This document shows positions 25,284-28,427 of a stretch of DNA of 64,000 nucleotides, piece after piece (within the stretch, counting starts at the first letter, position 1; each line of letters opens with the position of its first letter). The translations under genes and the position numbers were made by a program. A model generated the notes under the pieces. That model was given only the letters and a program-made list of their open reading frames with translations, searched no databases and had not been told where the DNA came from. This DNA comes from Chloroflexota bacterium (GTDB taxonomy: Bacteria; Chloroflexota; Anaerolineae; Anaerolineales; Villigracilaceae): the NCBI GenBank assembly GCA_021414245.1, contig JAIOOU010000003.1, positions 248,001 through 312,000 of the forward strand, written 5' to 3'.

Positions 25284-26258
25284 TTATCTTTTCCTGTCCA
25301 AAAACCACTTTACCGCATCCGAGATGCTTTCATATAATGCCCGCGGGTTATAGCCCAATTCTTTGGTGGCCTTTGCGTGGCTGATGTTTGAATTGCTTTG
25401 CAGCACTTCGAGTGAATAAGGGGTGAAGCGCGGTGTTTCATTAGCAAGCCGGTAATATGTCGGTGTGAACAAGGATGCGAATTTTGCAAAATCAAATGGG
25501 ACCTTCATTTGGAAAAAACCTCTCCCGGTGATTTCGCGCACGGTCTCGAGCAGGTAGCGCACCGAGATCTTCTGGCCGGAGAGAATGTAACTTTCGCCCT
25601 GTCTTCCCTTTTGTGCAGCCAGGATCAGACCATCGGCTACATCACGTACATCCACGAAATCGTAGGCGCCGTCCACGTAAAGTGTCGGCTTTGCCGCCGC
25701 CGCACCCTGGATGACTGCTCCCATCATCGAGCCGCGGTAATCAAAAGGGCCGATCACGCCGGTGGGGCATGTCACCACAGCTTCCAGTCCGGAATGAGCC
25801 GCATTCAAAACCTCGAGAGTTGCCTCCGCCTTGGAACGGTCATAAGCCCCGTAGGGATTGTTCATGTCATAGGGAACGCTTTCGTCAATCACACCCTTCT
25901 CCACGCGCCGGATCGCGTGAATGGAGGAGGTGTAAATCAATTTTCCGACCCCGCTTTCCTTTGCCGCCTGAAGAATATTCCGGGTGCCCTCGACATTGAC
26001 TTTTCTCACAGCGGGATTCGGACCTGGCATGATCGAGATCAACCCTGCCAGATGAAATACGCCCTTCACACCCCGCATGGATTCGAACAGGGAGCCGAGC
26101 TGCAGGATATCGCCCTCCACCGCTTCAAGATTTAATCCCGTTAATGATTCGCGGCTTTCGCCGGGCAGGATCAATGCCCGGACTTTTTCGCCGCGTTCCA
26201 AAAGTTTTCGCACCAGGACATTTCCCACATGTCCCGTTGCTCCGGTTACCAGCCACAT
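25284..26258 (-). CDS. NAD(P)-dependent epimerase/dehydratase (dihydroflavonol-4-reductase-like SDR)
   Basis: Extended short-chain dehydrogenase. The N-terminal cofactor motif TGATGHVGNVL is of the GxxGxxG type. The catalytic YxxxK is present as YDRSK, with upstream TSSIHAI, and FHLAG is conserved. It resembles the NAD-dependent epimerase group around HpnA and dihydroflavonol reductases. ATG 26258 is chosen; the tetR stop codon lies 10 nt upstream, so the SDR is likely co-transcribed with, and controlled by, the TetR protein. Substrate unknown. Confidence 0.85.
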   Translation of the reverse strand: MWLVTGATGHVGNVLVRKLLERGEKVRALILPGESRESLTGLNLEAVEGDILQLGSLFESMRGVKGVFHLAGLISIMPGPNPAVRKVNVEGTRNILQAAKESGVGKLIYTSSIHAIRRVEKGVIDESVPYDMNNPYGAYDRSKAEATLEVLNAAHSGLEAVVTCPTGVIGPFDYRGSMMGAVIQGAAAAKPTLYVDGAYDFVDVRDVADGLILAAQKGRQGESYILSGQKISVRYLLETVREITGRGFFQMKVPFDFAKFASLFTPTYYRLANETPRFTPYSLEVLQSNSNISHAKATKELGYNPRALYESISDAVKWFLDRKR

Positions 26259-26269
26259 ATTAAGACGCC

Positions 26270-26854
26270 TCACTTTTTTAATAGATTATCAATCAGCATG
26301 GCGGTGCTTTCGCGTGCCACCTTTTCCCATTTCGCGCCTTTCGGGTCCATCAAACTTTGCAGCAGCAGCCCCATTGCCGTGGAGACGATCATGCGCGAGG
26401 TTAATTCGGGGTCCACTTCAACGAAGGAACCTTCGTCCACACCCTTTTTGATGAGCGCGGTGAAATGTTTATGATAGCGGTGGTATGGTTTTATGCTGGC
26501 CTGCCAGATCTTTTCATCGCGGCTGGCCTGCAGCCAGAATTCGAGGAACATGGGCAGGCCTTCGCCTGCCGTTTCAAAGATGTAGGGAAAGGCTTCGGTG
26601 ATTCGCATAAATGTTTCCGGGGCGGTCAACTCCTTCGATGCTTCAATGGCATTGTCGATGGTTTGCAGCCAGCCGTCGAGCAGCGCAAGAAATAAATCCT
26701 GCTTGGTCTTGAAGTGGTGATAAAACGCACCCTTGCTGATGCCCGCGTCCCTGCACAAATCGTCCACACTGGCGGCGTTGTAACCGTGGGTCGAAAATAA
26801 TTTGATCGCCGATGAAAGTATCTTTGAACGGGTTTCTTCGCTGCGTTGCTGCAT
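26270..26854 (-). CDS. TetR/AcrR family transcriptional repressor
   Basis: N-terminal TetR helix-turn-helix: TRSKILSSAIKLFSTHGYNAASVDDLCRDAGISKGAFYHHFKTKQDLFLALL (about residues 8-58), followed by a ligand-binding all-helical domain with a TetR_C-type stretch EFWLQASRDEKIW. It is the first gene of a leftward unit with an SDR gene. A clear 18-base palindrome sits 16 nt upstream of the start, consistent with autorepression and control of the SDR. Ligand unknown; related operators are often found for regulators of lipid or acyl-CoA metabolism. Confidence 0.92.
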   Translation of the reverse strand: MQQRSEETRSKILSSAIKLFSTHGYNAASVDDLCRDAGISKGAFYHHFKTKQDLFLALLDGWLQTIDNAIEASKELTAPETFMRITEAFPYIFETAGEGLPMFLEFWLQASRDEKIWQASIKPYHRYHKHFTALIKKGVDEGSFVEVDPELTSRMIVSTAMGLLLQSLMDPKGAKWEKVARESTAMLIDNLLKK

Positions 26855-26994: not shown

Positions 26995-27801
26995 TCAGCC
27001 CGGTTTGTAGGCTGTGATCTTGGCGCTATATACAGCCTTGTAAACGTCCTCGCGGGAGAATGAACTCAGATCAATTTCATCGTCCAGACCGGCAAGGGCT
27101 GTGTCCACGGTTTCCTTGTCAAAGAAAACCGGTTTGATCGAAATATTTTCAAAGCCGGTGGATTTCATCATGGCGACGTACTCTTTTGCGTCCACTGCCC
27201 CGGCCACGCAACCCGCCCATGCGCTCAAGCTTTTTCGGACTGTTTCAGGAAGTTCCCCGTCCGTGACAATATCGGAGACTGCGAGCTTGCCGCCTGGGGC
27301 GAGCACGCGGAAGGCTTCGTTGAATACCTTTTCCTTGTCGGGGGAGAGGTTGATGACACAGTTTGAGATAATAACATCCACCGTGTTGCCGTCGACAGGC
27401 AGGCTTTCAAGATAACCGTGCCTGAATTCCACATTGTTCAAATTTACCTTTTTCGCATTGGCCCGGGCCCGTTCGATCATTTCGGGAGTCATGTCCACAC
27501 CGATGACATGTCCGGTTTCGCCGACTTTTTGTGCGGCGAGAATACAGTCCAGTCCGGCACCTGAACCGAGGTCAAGCACGGTTTGACCCGGCTTTAGCGA
27601 AGCCAGTGTAATTGGGTCGCCGCAGCCATAACTGGTGCCGGCCACATCGGAAGGAACAGTGGTGAGCAGATCGACAGGGTAGAGACTGCTTTCGGGCGAG
27701 CAGCAGGCATCCGATCCGCAGCAGGAAGCGCTGTTCTTGATCCGTTCTGCATAATGATCGCGAACAGCCTCATGGATGGGAGTGGGGGATTGAGTGGTCA
27801 T
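26995..27801 (-). CDS. arsM: Arsenite S-adenosylmethionine methyltransferase
   Basis: Methylates As(III) to methylarsenicals. SAM-binding motif LDLGSGAGLDCILAA, then GVDMTPEMIERARANA. The arsenic-binding cysteines typical of ArsM are present: C60 in SYGCGDP, a Cys in ISNCVINLSPDK, and a Cys in AWAGCVAG. Extra CC pairs lie near the N-terminus (C27-C28, C33-C34 in ASCCGSDACCSPE), also frequent in ArsM. It has its own ArsR-type dyad 16 nt upstream. Adjacent arsR and Cys-rich peptide genes make the arsenic context firm. Confidence 0.95.
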   Translation of the reverse strand: MTTQSPTPIHEAVRDHYAERIKNSASCCGSDACCSPESSLYPVDLLTTVPSDVAGTSYGCGDPITLASLKPGQTVLDLGSGAGLDCILAAQKVGETGHVIGVDMTPEMIERARANAKKVNLNNVEFRHGYLESLPVDGNTVDVIISNCVINLSPDKEKVFNEAFRVLAPGGKLAVSDIVTDGELPETVRKSLSAWAGCVAGAVDAKEYVAMMKSTGFENISIKPVFFDKETVDTALAGLDDEIDLSSFSREDVYKAVYSAKITAYKPG

Positions 27802-27816
27802 TTGAGACTCCTTGAA

Positions 27817-27832
27817 ATAGATGATTGTCTAT
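27817..27832. promoter_or_regulatory. ArsR-type operator before arsM
   Basis: ATAGATGATTGTCTAT, 5-bp arms ATAGA/TCTAT around 6 bases. It differs at one base from the copy at 28001-28016 and overlaps a plausible -10 (TAGACA on the minus strand). Confidence 0.75.
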
Positions 27833-27841
27833 GTGTTTGAG

Positions 27842-27891
27842 TAAAAAAATTTCAAAAGATTCCTCTCTGCCCGCAGATTGGCGAACAGAGA
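27842..27891 (-). terminator. Terminator after the Cys-rich peptide gene
   Basis: Arms TCTCTGCCCGC (27865-27875) and GCGAACAGAGA (27881-27891), with two G-T pairs. On the minus strand it is followed by TCTTTTGAAATTTTTTT. Confidence 0.6.
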
Positions 27892-27902
27892 TACGTACAA
27901 GC

Positions 27903-27983
27903 CTAGCAGCAACCGGGACCGCAGTTGCCGCCGCAGCATTCATCTTCGCAACATTCATTGCTGACGACTGGTAATTCGTTCAT
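27903..27983 (-). CDS. 26-residue cysteine-rich peptide of the arsenic locus
   Basis: A very small gene with a convincing ribosome binding site (AAAGGAG, 7 nt before the ATG). The product has seven cysteines in 26 residues: CC pairs at 11-12, 16-17 and 25-26 plus C21, spaced by acidic and glycine residues (ECCEDECC, GGNCGPGCC). It is located between arsR and arsM and preceded by a copy of the same operator. By composition it could bind As(III) or another soft metal like a metallothionein; this is inference. The ArsM N-terminus carries similar CC pairs. No family name known to me. Confidence 0.75.
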   Translation of the reverse strand: MNELPVVSNECCEDECCGGNCGPGCC

Positions 27984-28000
27984 GGAGGTGCTCCTTTCAT

Positions 28001-28016
28001 ATAGATGTTTGTCTAT
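28001..28016. promoter_or_regulatory. ArsR-type operator before the Cys-rich peptide gene
   Basis: ATAGATGTTTGTCTAT, one mismatch from the arsM operator, 17 bases upstream of the peptide start codon. Confidence 0.75.
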
Positions 28017-28026
28017 GAAATTTGCC

Positions 28027-28065
28027 AAAAAAACGGGAGACTGCCCCGGCCGGAGACAGATCCCG
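28027..28065 (-). terminator. Terminator after arsR
   Basis: Imperfect hairpin 28034-28065 (CGGGA/TCCCG ends, CTG/CAG and CCGG/CCGG inner pairs) starting 1 base beyond the arsR stop codon, followed on the minus strand by seven T. Confidence 0.75.
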
Positions 28066-28066
28066 A

Positions 28067-28378
28067 TCAGGCCTTGATGGTTTTCAAGAGATTTTCGGTT
28101 GCCACGGATTCCGGCGCGAATTTGACCATGAGCTGGCCGCAACAGTAGGCAACCCGTTCCTGGTTGAGAGTGTAGAAAGTCTGCTTGCCTTCCTCGCGCA
28201 CTGTGACCAGGTCCGCCTCGCGCAGAATCGCAAGATGATGGGAGACAGTCGGTTGGGATACATCCAGCTTCTCCACGATCTCATTGACCGAAAGCGAGCA
28301 GCAACAACAGAGATTCATGATCTTCTGGCGTGTCTCATCGGAAATGGCTTTGGCAAAAAGGACGGGGTTAAATTTCAT
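28067..28378 (-). CDS. arsR: ArsR/SmtB family metalloregulator
   Basis: Winged-helix repressor that leaves DNA when it binds As(III). The HTH is EIVEKLDVSQPTVSHHLAILREADLV (about 33-60), followed by the wing VREEGKQTFYTLN. Four consecutive cysteines, C24-C27 (NLCCCCSLS), sit at the start of the alpha3 region where ArsR sensors carry ELCVCDL-type ligands, and another CC occurs near AYCCGQL. This is an unusually Cys-rich sensor. It has a near-consensus promoter with an operator-like sequence between -35 and -10. First unit of the arsenic locus. Confidence 0.93.
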   Translation of the reverse strand: MKFNPVLFAKAISDETRQKIMNLCCCCSLSVNEIVEKLDVSQPTVSHHLAILREADLVTVREEGKQTFYTLNQERVAYCCGQLMVKFAPESVATENLLKTIKA

Positions 28379-28399
28379 ATCGACGGCTTTCTATGTGAC

Positions 28400-28427
28400 A
28401 TTATATCGAAATTTATCTATTTGTCAA
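28400..28427 (-). promoter_or_regulatory. Promoter and operator of arsR
   Basis: Minus strand TTGACA (28422-28427), 16-base spacer, TATAAT (28400-28405). ATAGATAAATTTCGAT lies between and into the -10 (28405-28420) and matches the left half of the two downstream operators. The expected ArsR autorepression site. Confidence 0.75.

Follow-up and report, generated by a model that had tools for sequence, protein, structure and literature searches.

Sensing, reduction, export and methylation are the known tasks of bacterial ars operons in handling arsenic; storage is not among them. Open reading frames (ORFs) as short as the one described here are, to our knowledge, skipped by standard gene finders. 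Here we analyse the ars locus in a 64,000-nucleotide stretch of a Chloroflexota genome of the family Villigracilaceae (contig JAIOOU010000003.1, assembly GCA_021414245.1; henceforth the window, whose own numbering we use throughout). The minus strand of the window carries, one after another, arsR, a 26-codon ORF with 7 Cys and arsM.

Several described systems resemble this locus in part. Like the bacterial metallothioneins SmtA/BmtA and MymT (of which SmtA is under an ArsR/SmtB repressor), the predicted peptide is small and Cys-rich, but with 23–30 amino acids (aa) across its family it has about half their length, and it is tied to arsR and arsM rather than to Zn or Cu genes. ArsD is a folded arsenic metallochaperone of ~110–120 aa which has vicinal Cys pairs, binds As(III) and serves ArsA; the peptide shares with it the ars linkage and the vicinal Cys pairs but has only 26 aa, and the ArsD model was absent from its Pfam and NCBIfam matches. 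The Cys-rich C-terminal tail found on some ArsM proteins is likewise a short stretch, often CC-ended, beside the same enzyme, whereas the peptide is encoded separately, behind an operator and a ribosome-binding site of its own, and is also found without a close arsM. Finally, the locus has in common with ArsR-regulated ars operons that include arsM the two genes themselves and a promoter-overlapping operator, but differs from the usual arrangement in its single-gene units, its repeated operators and the micropeptide gene.

In database comparisons, none of the metallothionein models of Pfam and NCBIfam matched 31 members of the peptide family at E ≤ 0.1, and no PDB sequence matched the family at E ≤ 1. 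Matches to Conotoxin_I2 (3/31 members, best E 0.052) and TIGR04200 (1/31 members, E 0.039), all weak and below the cut-off, were discarded as chance effects of composition. Within the open literature (titles and abstract openings among the matches listed, with subscription papers excluded), we found no Cys-rich micropeptide of an ars regulon. A 2025 paper says that the ars operon has so far yielded no specific gene for intracellular sequestration (PMC12093948), and the Anaerolineae ars genes named in the available passages of another paper do not include a Cys-rich peptide (PMC11650866).

The Cys-rich micropeptide gene and its conservation

The gene (27903–27983, minus strand) encodes a predicted peptide of 26 aa with 7 Cys, MNELPVVSNECCEDECCGGNCGPGCC, and is preceded by the ribosome-binding site AAAGGAG (27991–27997, minus strand), which lies 7 bases before the ATG and has an anti-Shine–Dalgarno match of 6 bases. 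A preliminary description, made from the letters of the window, had reported the row of arsR, a small 7-Cys gene with AAAGGAG and arsM, and we confirmed all of it; the three genes share the minus strand. It had also made the reading depend on conservation of the peptide next to arsM in relatives. Our sample of the family comprised 152 genomes, 98 of which contained arsM relatives (E ≤ 1e-60); a scan of 90 of those 98 loci for short ORFs that are rich in Cys and preceded by a ribosome-binding site found a peptide homologue with its own ribosome-binding site in 33 of the 90. Four further genomes add to this number: in G109 the peptide lies behind arsR, 1.8 kb from arsM and outside the stretch initially examined; in G010, whose locus is not among the 90, it lies behind arsM; and in G093 and G098 it lies behind arsR with no arsM at E ≤ 1e-60. 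Altogether, the peptide thus occurs beside arsM or arsR in 37 of the 152 genomes, and the conservation check set by the preliminary description comes out in favour of its reading.

A profile search independent of arsM returned 32 matches at E < 1e-3, all of them within ~2.5 kb of arsR or arsM. So short a profile makes the search lossy (known carriers G101 and G046–G048 were missed), and its counts are therefore lower bounds. We left out of all counts the matches with E values of 0.07–0.33 in G085, G072 and G144, a second such match in G092, and a match of the locus scan at L013, which is a different ORF. The usual pattern is M-N-E-L-x-V-x-N followed by a Cys/Gly/Glu-rich core with a terminal Cys-Cys, and a few members have other heads; L132 (in G092) and L077 (in G089), for example, share the alternative head MKIFYNDPGCC. 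The ratio pN/pS (Nei–Gojobori) was 0.34 over 32 distinct sequences and 0.29 over 15 of the MNELP type, with pS saturated at 0.74 and pN somewhat lowered by a selection of sequences based partly on conserved residues. Pairing with the anti-Shine–Dalgarno sequence extended over 10–11 bases in 16 of the 33 peptide genes, compared with at most 7 in arsM and at most 5 in arsR. Judged by its sequence, the 26-residue ORF is a real conserved gene.

The family-wide distribution is uneven. On a tree of 89 ArsM proteins, with the peptide present at 32 and absent at 57 (G109 being scored as absent), ~19 changes are needed, against a mean of 26 for shuffled states; well supported branches force at least 7 gains or losses, on bootstrap values that have not settled. 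By this measure the gene is often gained or lost. Two loci (L058 and L011) have identical ArsR and identical peptides with ArsM proteins that are 79% identical, but as the DNA match between them is a single one of 2.1 kb at 81%, we claim no swapping of cassettes. Partial correlations of co-evolution across 29 loci were 0.32 for peptide and ArsR and 0.36 for peptide and ArsM, values that favour neither partner.

At wider scales, profile searches (again giving lower bounds) over 400 genomes of the order yielded 27 clear members, each from the same family, and over 400 genomes of the phylum 6, each from the same genus; a match in G313 (E 0.0035) in the order search lies within a 317-aa frame and looks like chance. 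A strict DNA pattern run over 84,980 species matched 76 stretches, 23 of which encode the peptide in frame. The titles of all 23 name Anaerolineales, Anaerolineae, Anaerolineaceae, Chloroflexi or Candidatus Villigracilaceae (a family of Anaerolineales, Chloroflexota). A plasmid collection contained no match.

Operators and gene order of the ars locus

Dyads resembling ArsR operators precede all three genes of the window, as the preliminary description had stated. Those of the peptide gene (ATAGACAAACATCTAT, 28001–28016, minus strand) and of arsM (ATAGACAATCATCTAT, 27817–27832, minus strand) are perfect copies of ATAGA-N6-TCTAT, while that of arsR (ATAGATAAATTTCGAT, 28405–28420, minus strand) has 1 mismatch and lies within the spacer of a sigma-70 type promoter (28400–28427, minus strand; TTGACA-16-TATAAT, 12/12 matches). 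The window holds 4 dyads with at most one mismatch where 0.51 are expected, and none of 100 shuffles reached 4. The fourth, ATAGAAAGCCGTCGAT at 28379–28394, is weaker, lies between the arsR promoter and the ATG and is partly conserved in relatives; going by its sequence, it is perhaps a second ArsR site.

Such operators recur across the family. With at most one mismatch allowed and within 75 bp upstream, operators were found before 75 of 83 arsR genes, 26 of 33 peptide genes and 60 of 90 arsM genes, as compared with shuffle means of 1.1, 0.07 and 0.5, respectively (one of the arsM genes, in L082, is incomplete, and the contig of L042 stops short of any arsR). Position and operator go together: each of the 26 peptide genes upstream of arsM has an operator of its own, and each of the 7 downstream of arsM lacks one. 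TTGACA stands at a single fixed offset from the operator in 74 of the 75 arsR upstream regions that were aligned. Before the peptide and arsM genes, a T-run precedes the operator and the ribosome-binding site follows it, and the right arm of the operator enters a TATAT-like sequence which may be the -10 element of their promoters. The idea of a third gene with an ArsR-type operator of its own is thereby strongly supported, both by the perfect dyad at 28001 and by its counterparts in relatives.

A wider regulon did not emerge. We scanned the genome assembly (3.87 Mb, 17 contigs, 98% complete) and found only two perfect dyads, namely those before the peptide gene and before arsM. Dyads with at most one mismatch were not in excess genome-wide (35, compared with 52 for a reversed-pattern control); the motif therefore reveals no genome-wide ArsR regulon, and further members cannot be named from it.

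The preliminary description had further proposed separate terminators and three single-gene units. Hairpins are indeed present after arsR (28027–28048, minus strand; hairpin at 28048–28034 with 5 pairs, then T7) and after the peptide gene (27864–27891, minus strand; 11 pairs with a less ideal T-run). As the stretch scanned contains 5 terminator-like sites against 1.8 (standard deviation 1.5) in shuffles, their role as terminators is plausible rather than proven. Single-gene units are found here and in many relatives, but elsewhere the peptide gene follows arsM and has no operator, or precedes an arsP-like gene. Specifically (flavodoxin, arsP and methyltransferase being names given by eye from the sequence), L131 together with L035 reads arsR-peptide-arsP-like-arsM, L130 reads arsR-peptide-flavodoxin-like ORF-...-arsM-...-arsP-like, and L132 reads arsR-arsM-methyltransferase-like ORF-peptide. 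Two loci consist of arsM-peptide (L134, L135) and two of arsR-peptide alone (L128, L129), and in these four a convergent gene follows the peptide.

Both genes flanking the peptide gene encode recognisable proteins. ArsR (28067–28378, minus strand; 103 aa) is an ArsR/SmtB repressor with CCCC at residues 24–27 and CC at 78–79, and matches the metalloregulator model NF033788 with 82.8 bits (cut-off 55) and PF01022 with 54 bits (cut-off 22). CCCC rather than CCCx in the N-terminal Cys run of ArsR is commoner at loci with the peptide (14/30 versus 9/53; Fisher p 0.005, uncorrected for relatedness). ArsM (26995–27801, minus strand; 268 aa; ribosome-binding site AAGGAG at 27808–27813, minus strand) scores 315 bits against the arsenite methyltransferase model NF008823 (cut-off 263), has N-terminal CC pairs and has no Cys tail at its C-terminus. 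Across the family, the motifs GCGxP, NCVIN and xCVAG, which we take to be the conserved catalytic Cys motifs of ArsM, were found as such types in 86, 88 and 78 of 89 proteins, respectively. Some ArsM relatives contain a single in-frame TGA (G882, G941, G927, G836, G816, G949 and G952) and some others belong to open frames that are about 1000 aa long (compare the NCBIfam entry ArsM_AhpD_UU); to judge from their frames, these are possible selenoproteins or fused forms of ArsM. Behind arsM in the window follow genes for a TetR-type regulator (26270–26854, minus strand) and an NAD-dependent epimerase (25284–26273, minus strand), neither of which is an ars gene.

Cys-rich micro-ORFs at other ars loci

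We applied a strict filter (14–33 aa, at least 5 Cys, at least 22% Cys and a ribosome-binding site) to ars loci outside the window's family; within that family the same filter is passed at 33 of 90 loci. For other Chloroflexota we hand-picked 80 arsM loci from ~160 matching genomes, the later 40 partly because earlier matches pointed to their families. Six of the 80 were positive, each with a micro-ORF beside arsM or arsR (L252, L274, L280, L290, L296 and L308), and only one of these (L252) was among the first 40. Two of the six belong to one family, f54, which holds a second conserved peptide family: 28 genomes yielded 17 arsM loci, 7 of them with a Pro-Cys-Cys peptide such as MNEPCCPAPCCPAPDCCPPDEAPCC. 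Merging the two sets, which share 4 loci, gives 11 positives among 93 loci of other Chloroflexota, a figure raised by the f54 follow-up.

The micro-ORFs of these families have 16–31 aa and are dissimilar to the main family; by eye, we judge them unrelated to each other. Three of the 11 (L274, L308 and L418) have the dyad ATNGA-N6-TCNAT just upstream, a pattern that was loosened after two had been seen, and at L280 the start of the micro-ORF overlaps the arsM stop. Six of the 11 were scanned against Pfam and NCBIfam at E ≤ 0.1 and had no match. Among the matches of a looser filter, we dropped L376, L392, L395 and L359 as the in-frame C-terminus of ArsM, and took L262, L282, L372, L389 and L402 as chance; none of these nine passes the strict filter.

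Outside Chloroflexota the strict filter was passed at none of 93 arsM loci, with flanks of 1.5 kb as compared with 2–3 kb for most Chloroflexota loci; the set comprised 3 single loci and the top 30 for each of three phyla, namely those of a Geobacteraceae metagenome-assembled genome (MAG), of a Paenibacillus and of a Sideroxydans MAG. Ten dinucleotide shuffles of every locus set produced no match to the filter, and 411 kb of control DNA that was not chosen for ars genes and comes mostly from other phyla produced one. Applied to the 64 kb window, the filter returned only the peptide. The control DNA of this lineage away from ars genes is small, amounting to the window and about 23 kb.

Proposed role of the peptide and rival explanations

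Taking this evidence together, we consider it the best reading, with a probability of roughly 0.6, that the peptide is an As(III)-induced thiol buffer of the ArsR regulon which may also donate As(III) to ArsM. The Cys motif of ArsR would be bound by As(III) or by a metalloid with a similar preference for thiols. All 83 family ArsR proteins have at least two Cys in residues 16–40, the segment in which the classical repressor has its As(III) site, and all 83 have CC within residues 71–90. ArsR would then leave the three near-identical operators, releasing arsR, the peptide gene and arsM. Once translated, the peptide would probably be unstructured, with Cys clusters inside the chain and Cys-Cys as its last two residues. 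It would bind each As(III) ion through three thiolates, with room for about two ions, and buffer free arsenite, protecting the thiols of the cell during methylation by ArsM, to which it may also pass As(III) in trans. The preliminary description had called the peptide a metallothionein-like buffer or donor; this stands as the best inference, except that no metallothionein model matches and that the donor part is weakened by G093 and G098. With arsR and the peptide but no close arsM in these two genomes, the peptide, it seems, is not an obligate ArsM subunit.

One rival reading, which we think unlikely but place next, is that the peptide replaces in trans the Cys-rich tail with which some ArsM enzymes end (for instance EAVKPGGCCSDSGCC). 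It would trap As(III) for the enzyme or hold the enzyme's Cys in the reduced state, as an accessory of ArsM rather than a general buffer. The usual cysteines of ArsM have been described (PMC8649762, in the passages available), and the open-literature listings and passages contained no mention of such a tail. None of the 89 family ArsM proteins has two or more Cys in its last 30 residues, and many end in SAKITAYKP, where the tail begins elsewhere; by contrast, 22 of 30 from the phylum of the Sideroxydans MAG have such a tail (21 with CC in the last 15 residues; an example is KPGGCCSDSGCC at L376), as do 18 of 80 from other Chloroflexota (of which 12 have CC among their final 15). In f54, where 7 of 17 loci have a micropeptide, the ArsM of L409 ends in ESCC at a locus without one. 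However, L252 carries both tail and micropeptide, most family arsM loci have neither, and the Bacillota-type and Desulfobacterota-type sets, in which only 3/30 and 2/32 ArsM proteins have a tail, have no peptide. The likeness between peptide and tail is, moreover, compositional, with homology not proven. Because of L252, the many ArsM with neither, and the two genomes with arsR and peptide but no arsM at E ≤ 1e-60, we place the tail role behind the buffer.

Another rival reading concerns the metal. Repressors of the ArsR/SmtB type respond to several metals, and peptides rich in Cys generally bind soft ones, so that the peptide could instead chelate Zn, Cd, Cu or Hg sensed by ArsR; the operator pairs it with arsM, however, and at L130 and L131 it lies near a gene for an ArsP-like permease (named by eye), which makes this improbable. 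Its position before arsM in the window, with a hairpin in between and Cys codons at the end of the ORF, would also suit a leader peptide, i.e., a Cys-rich upstream ORF whose translation controls the terminator before arsM by attenuation according to Cys supply. This reading is largely refuted by gene position and we give it very little weight: a convergent gene follows the peptide in four loci and arsM is not close in G093 and G098, so the peptide is not a leader there, in 7 of 33 loci it comes after arsM, and 60 of 90 arsM genes have their own operator. Least probable of all, and set low on gene position and neighbours, is a precursor of a ribosomally made, modified peptide with the MNELPVV head as leader and the Cys stretch as core. 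The head is conserved and the Cys-rich core variable, as this would predict, but the entire gene has ~25 codons, and no maturase was seen by eye among the ORFs of nine loci (first 70 residues of each).

Several observations weigh against the thiol-buffer reading itself. The peptide is patchy, being absent from 57 of the 90 family loci as examined (in G109, one of these, it lies just beyond the stretch), and the ~19 gains or losses on the ArsM tree indicate that it is dispensable. The number and spacing of its Cys vary, which fits a loose chelator but would equally fit weak constraint. In the window the ribosome-binding site is ordinary, with 6 bases no better than that of arsM, and therefore makes no case for high output in this genome. 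The ion sensed by ArsR is deduced solely from its Cys motif. Outside the phylum, the shorter flanks mean that more distant micropeptides would be missed.

With somewhat less confidence than even odds, we suggest that Cys-rich micropeptides (16–31 aa, in several dissimilar families) form a class of ars regulon products in Chloroflexota that has been overlooked, acting as genetically encoded, arsenic-induced As(III) sponges and as detachable, trans-acting ArsM tails. If true, no arsenite-sequestering product of an ars operon itself would have been known before them, their ORFs having been missed for their small size. The sequestration gap in ars operons would be filled by a conserved thiol micropeptide behind an ArsR-type operator, which would also allow testing whether a carrier or the solution supplies ArsM with As(III); since peptides of this length can be synthesised, the question is directly testable. 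More broadly, the finding suggests that ORFs below ~30 codons conceal parts of well-studied resistance systems.

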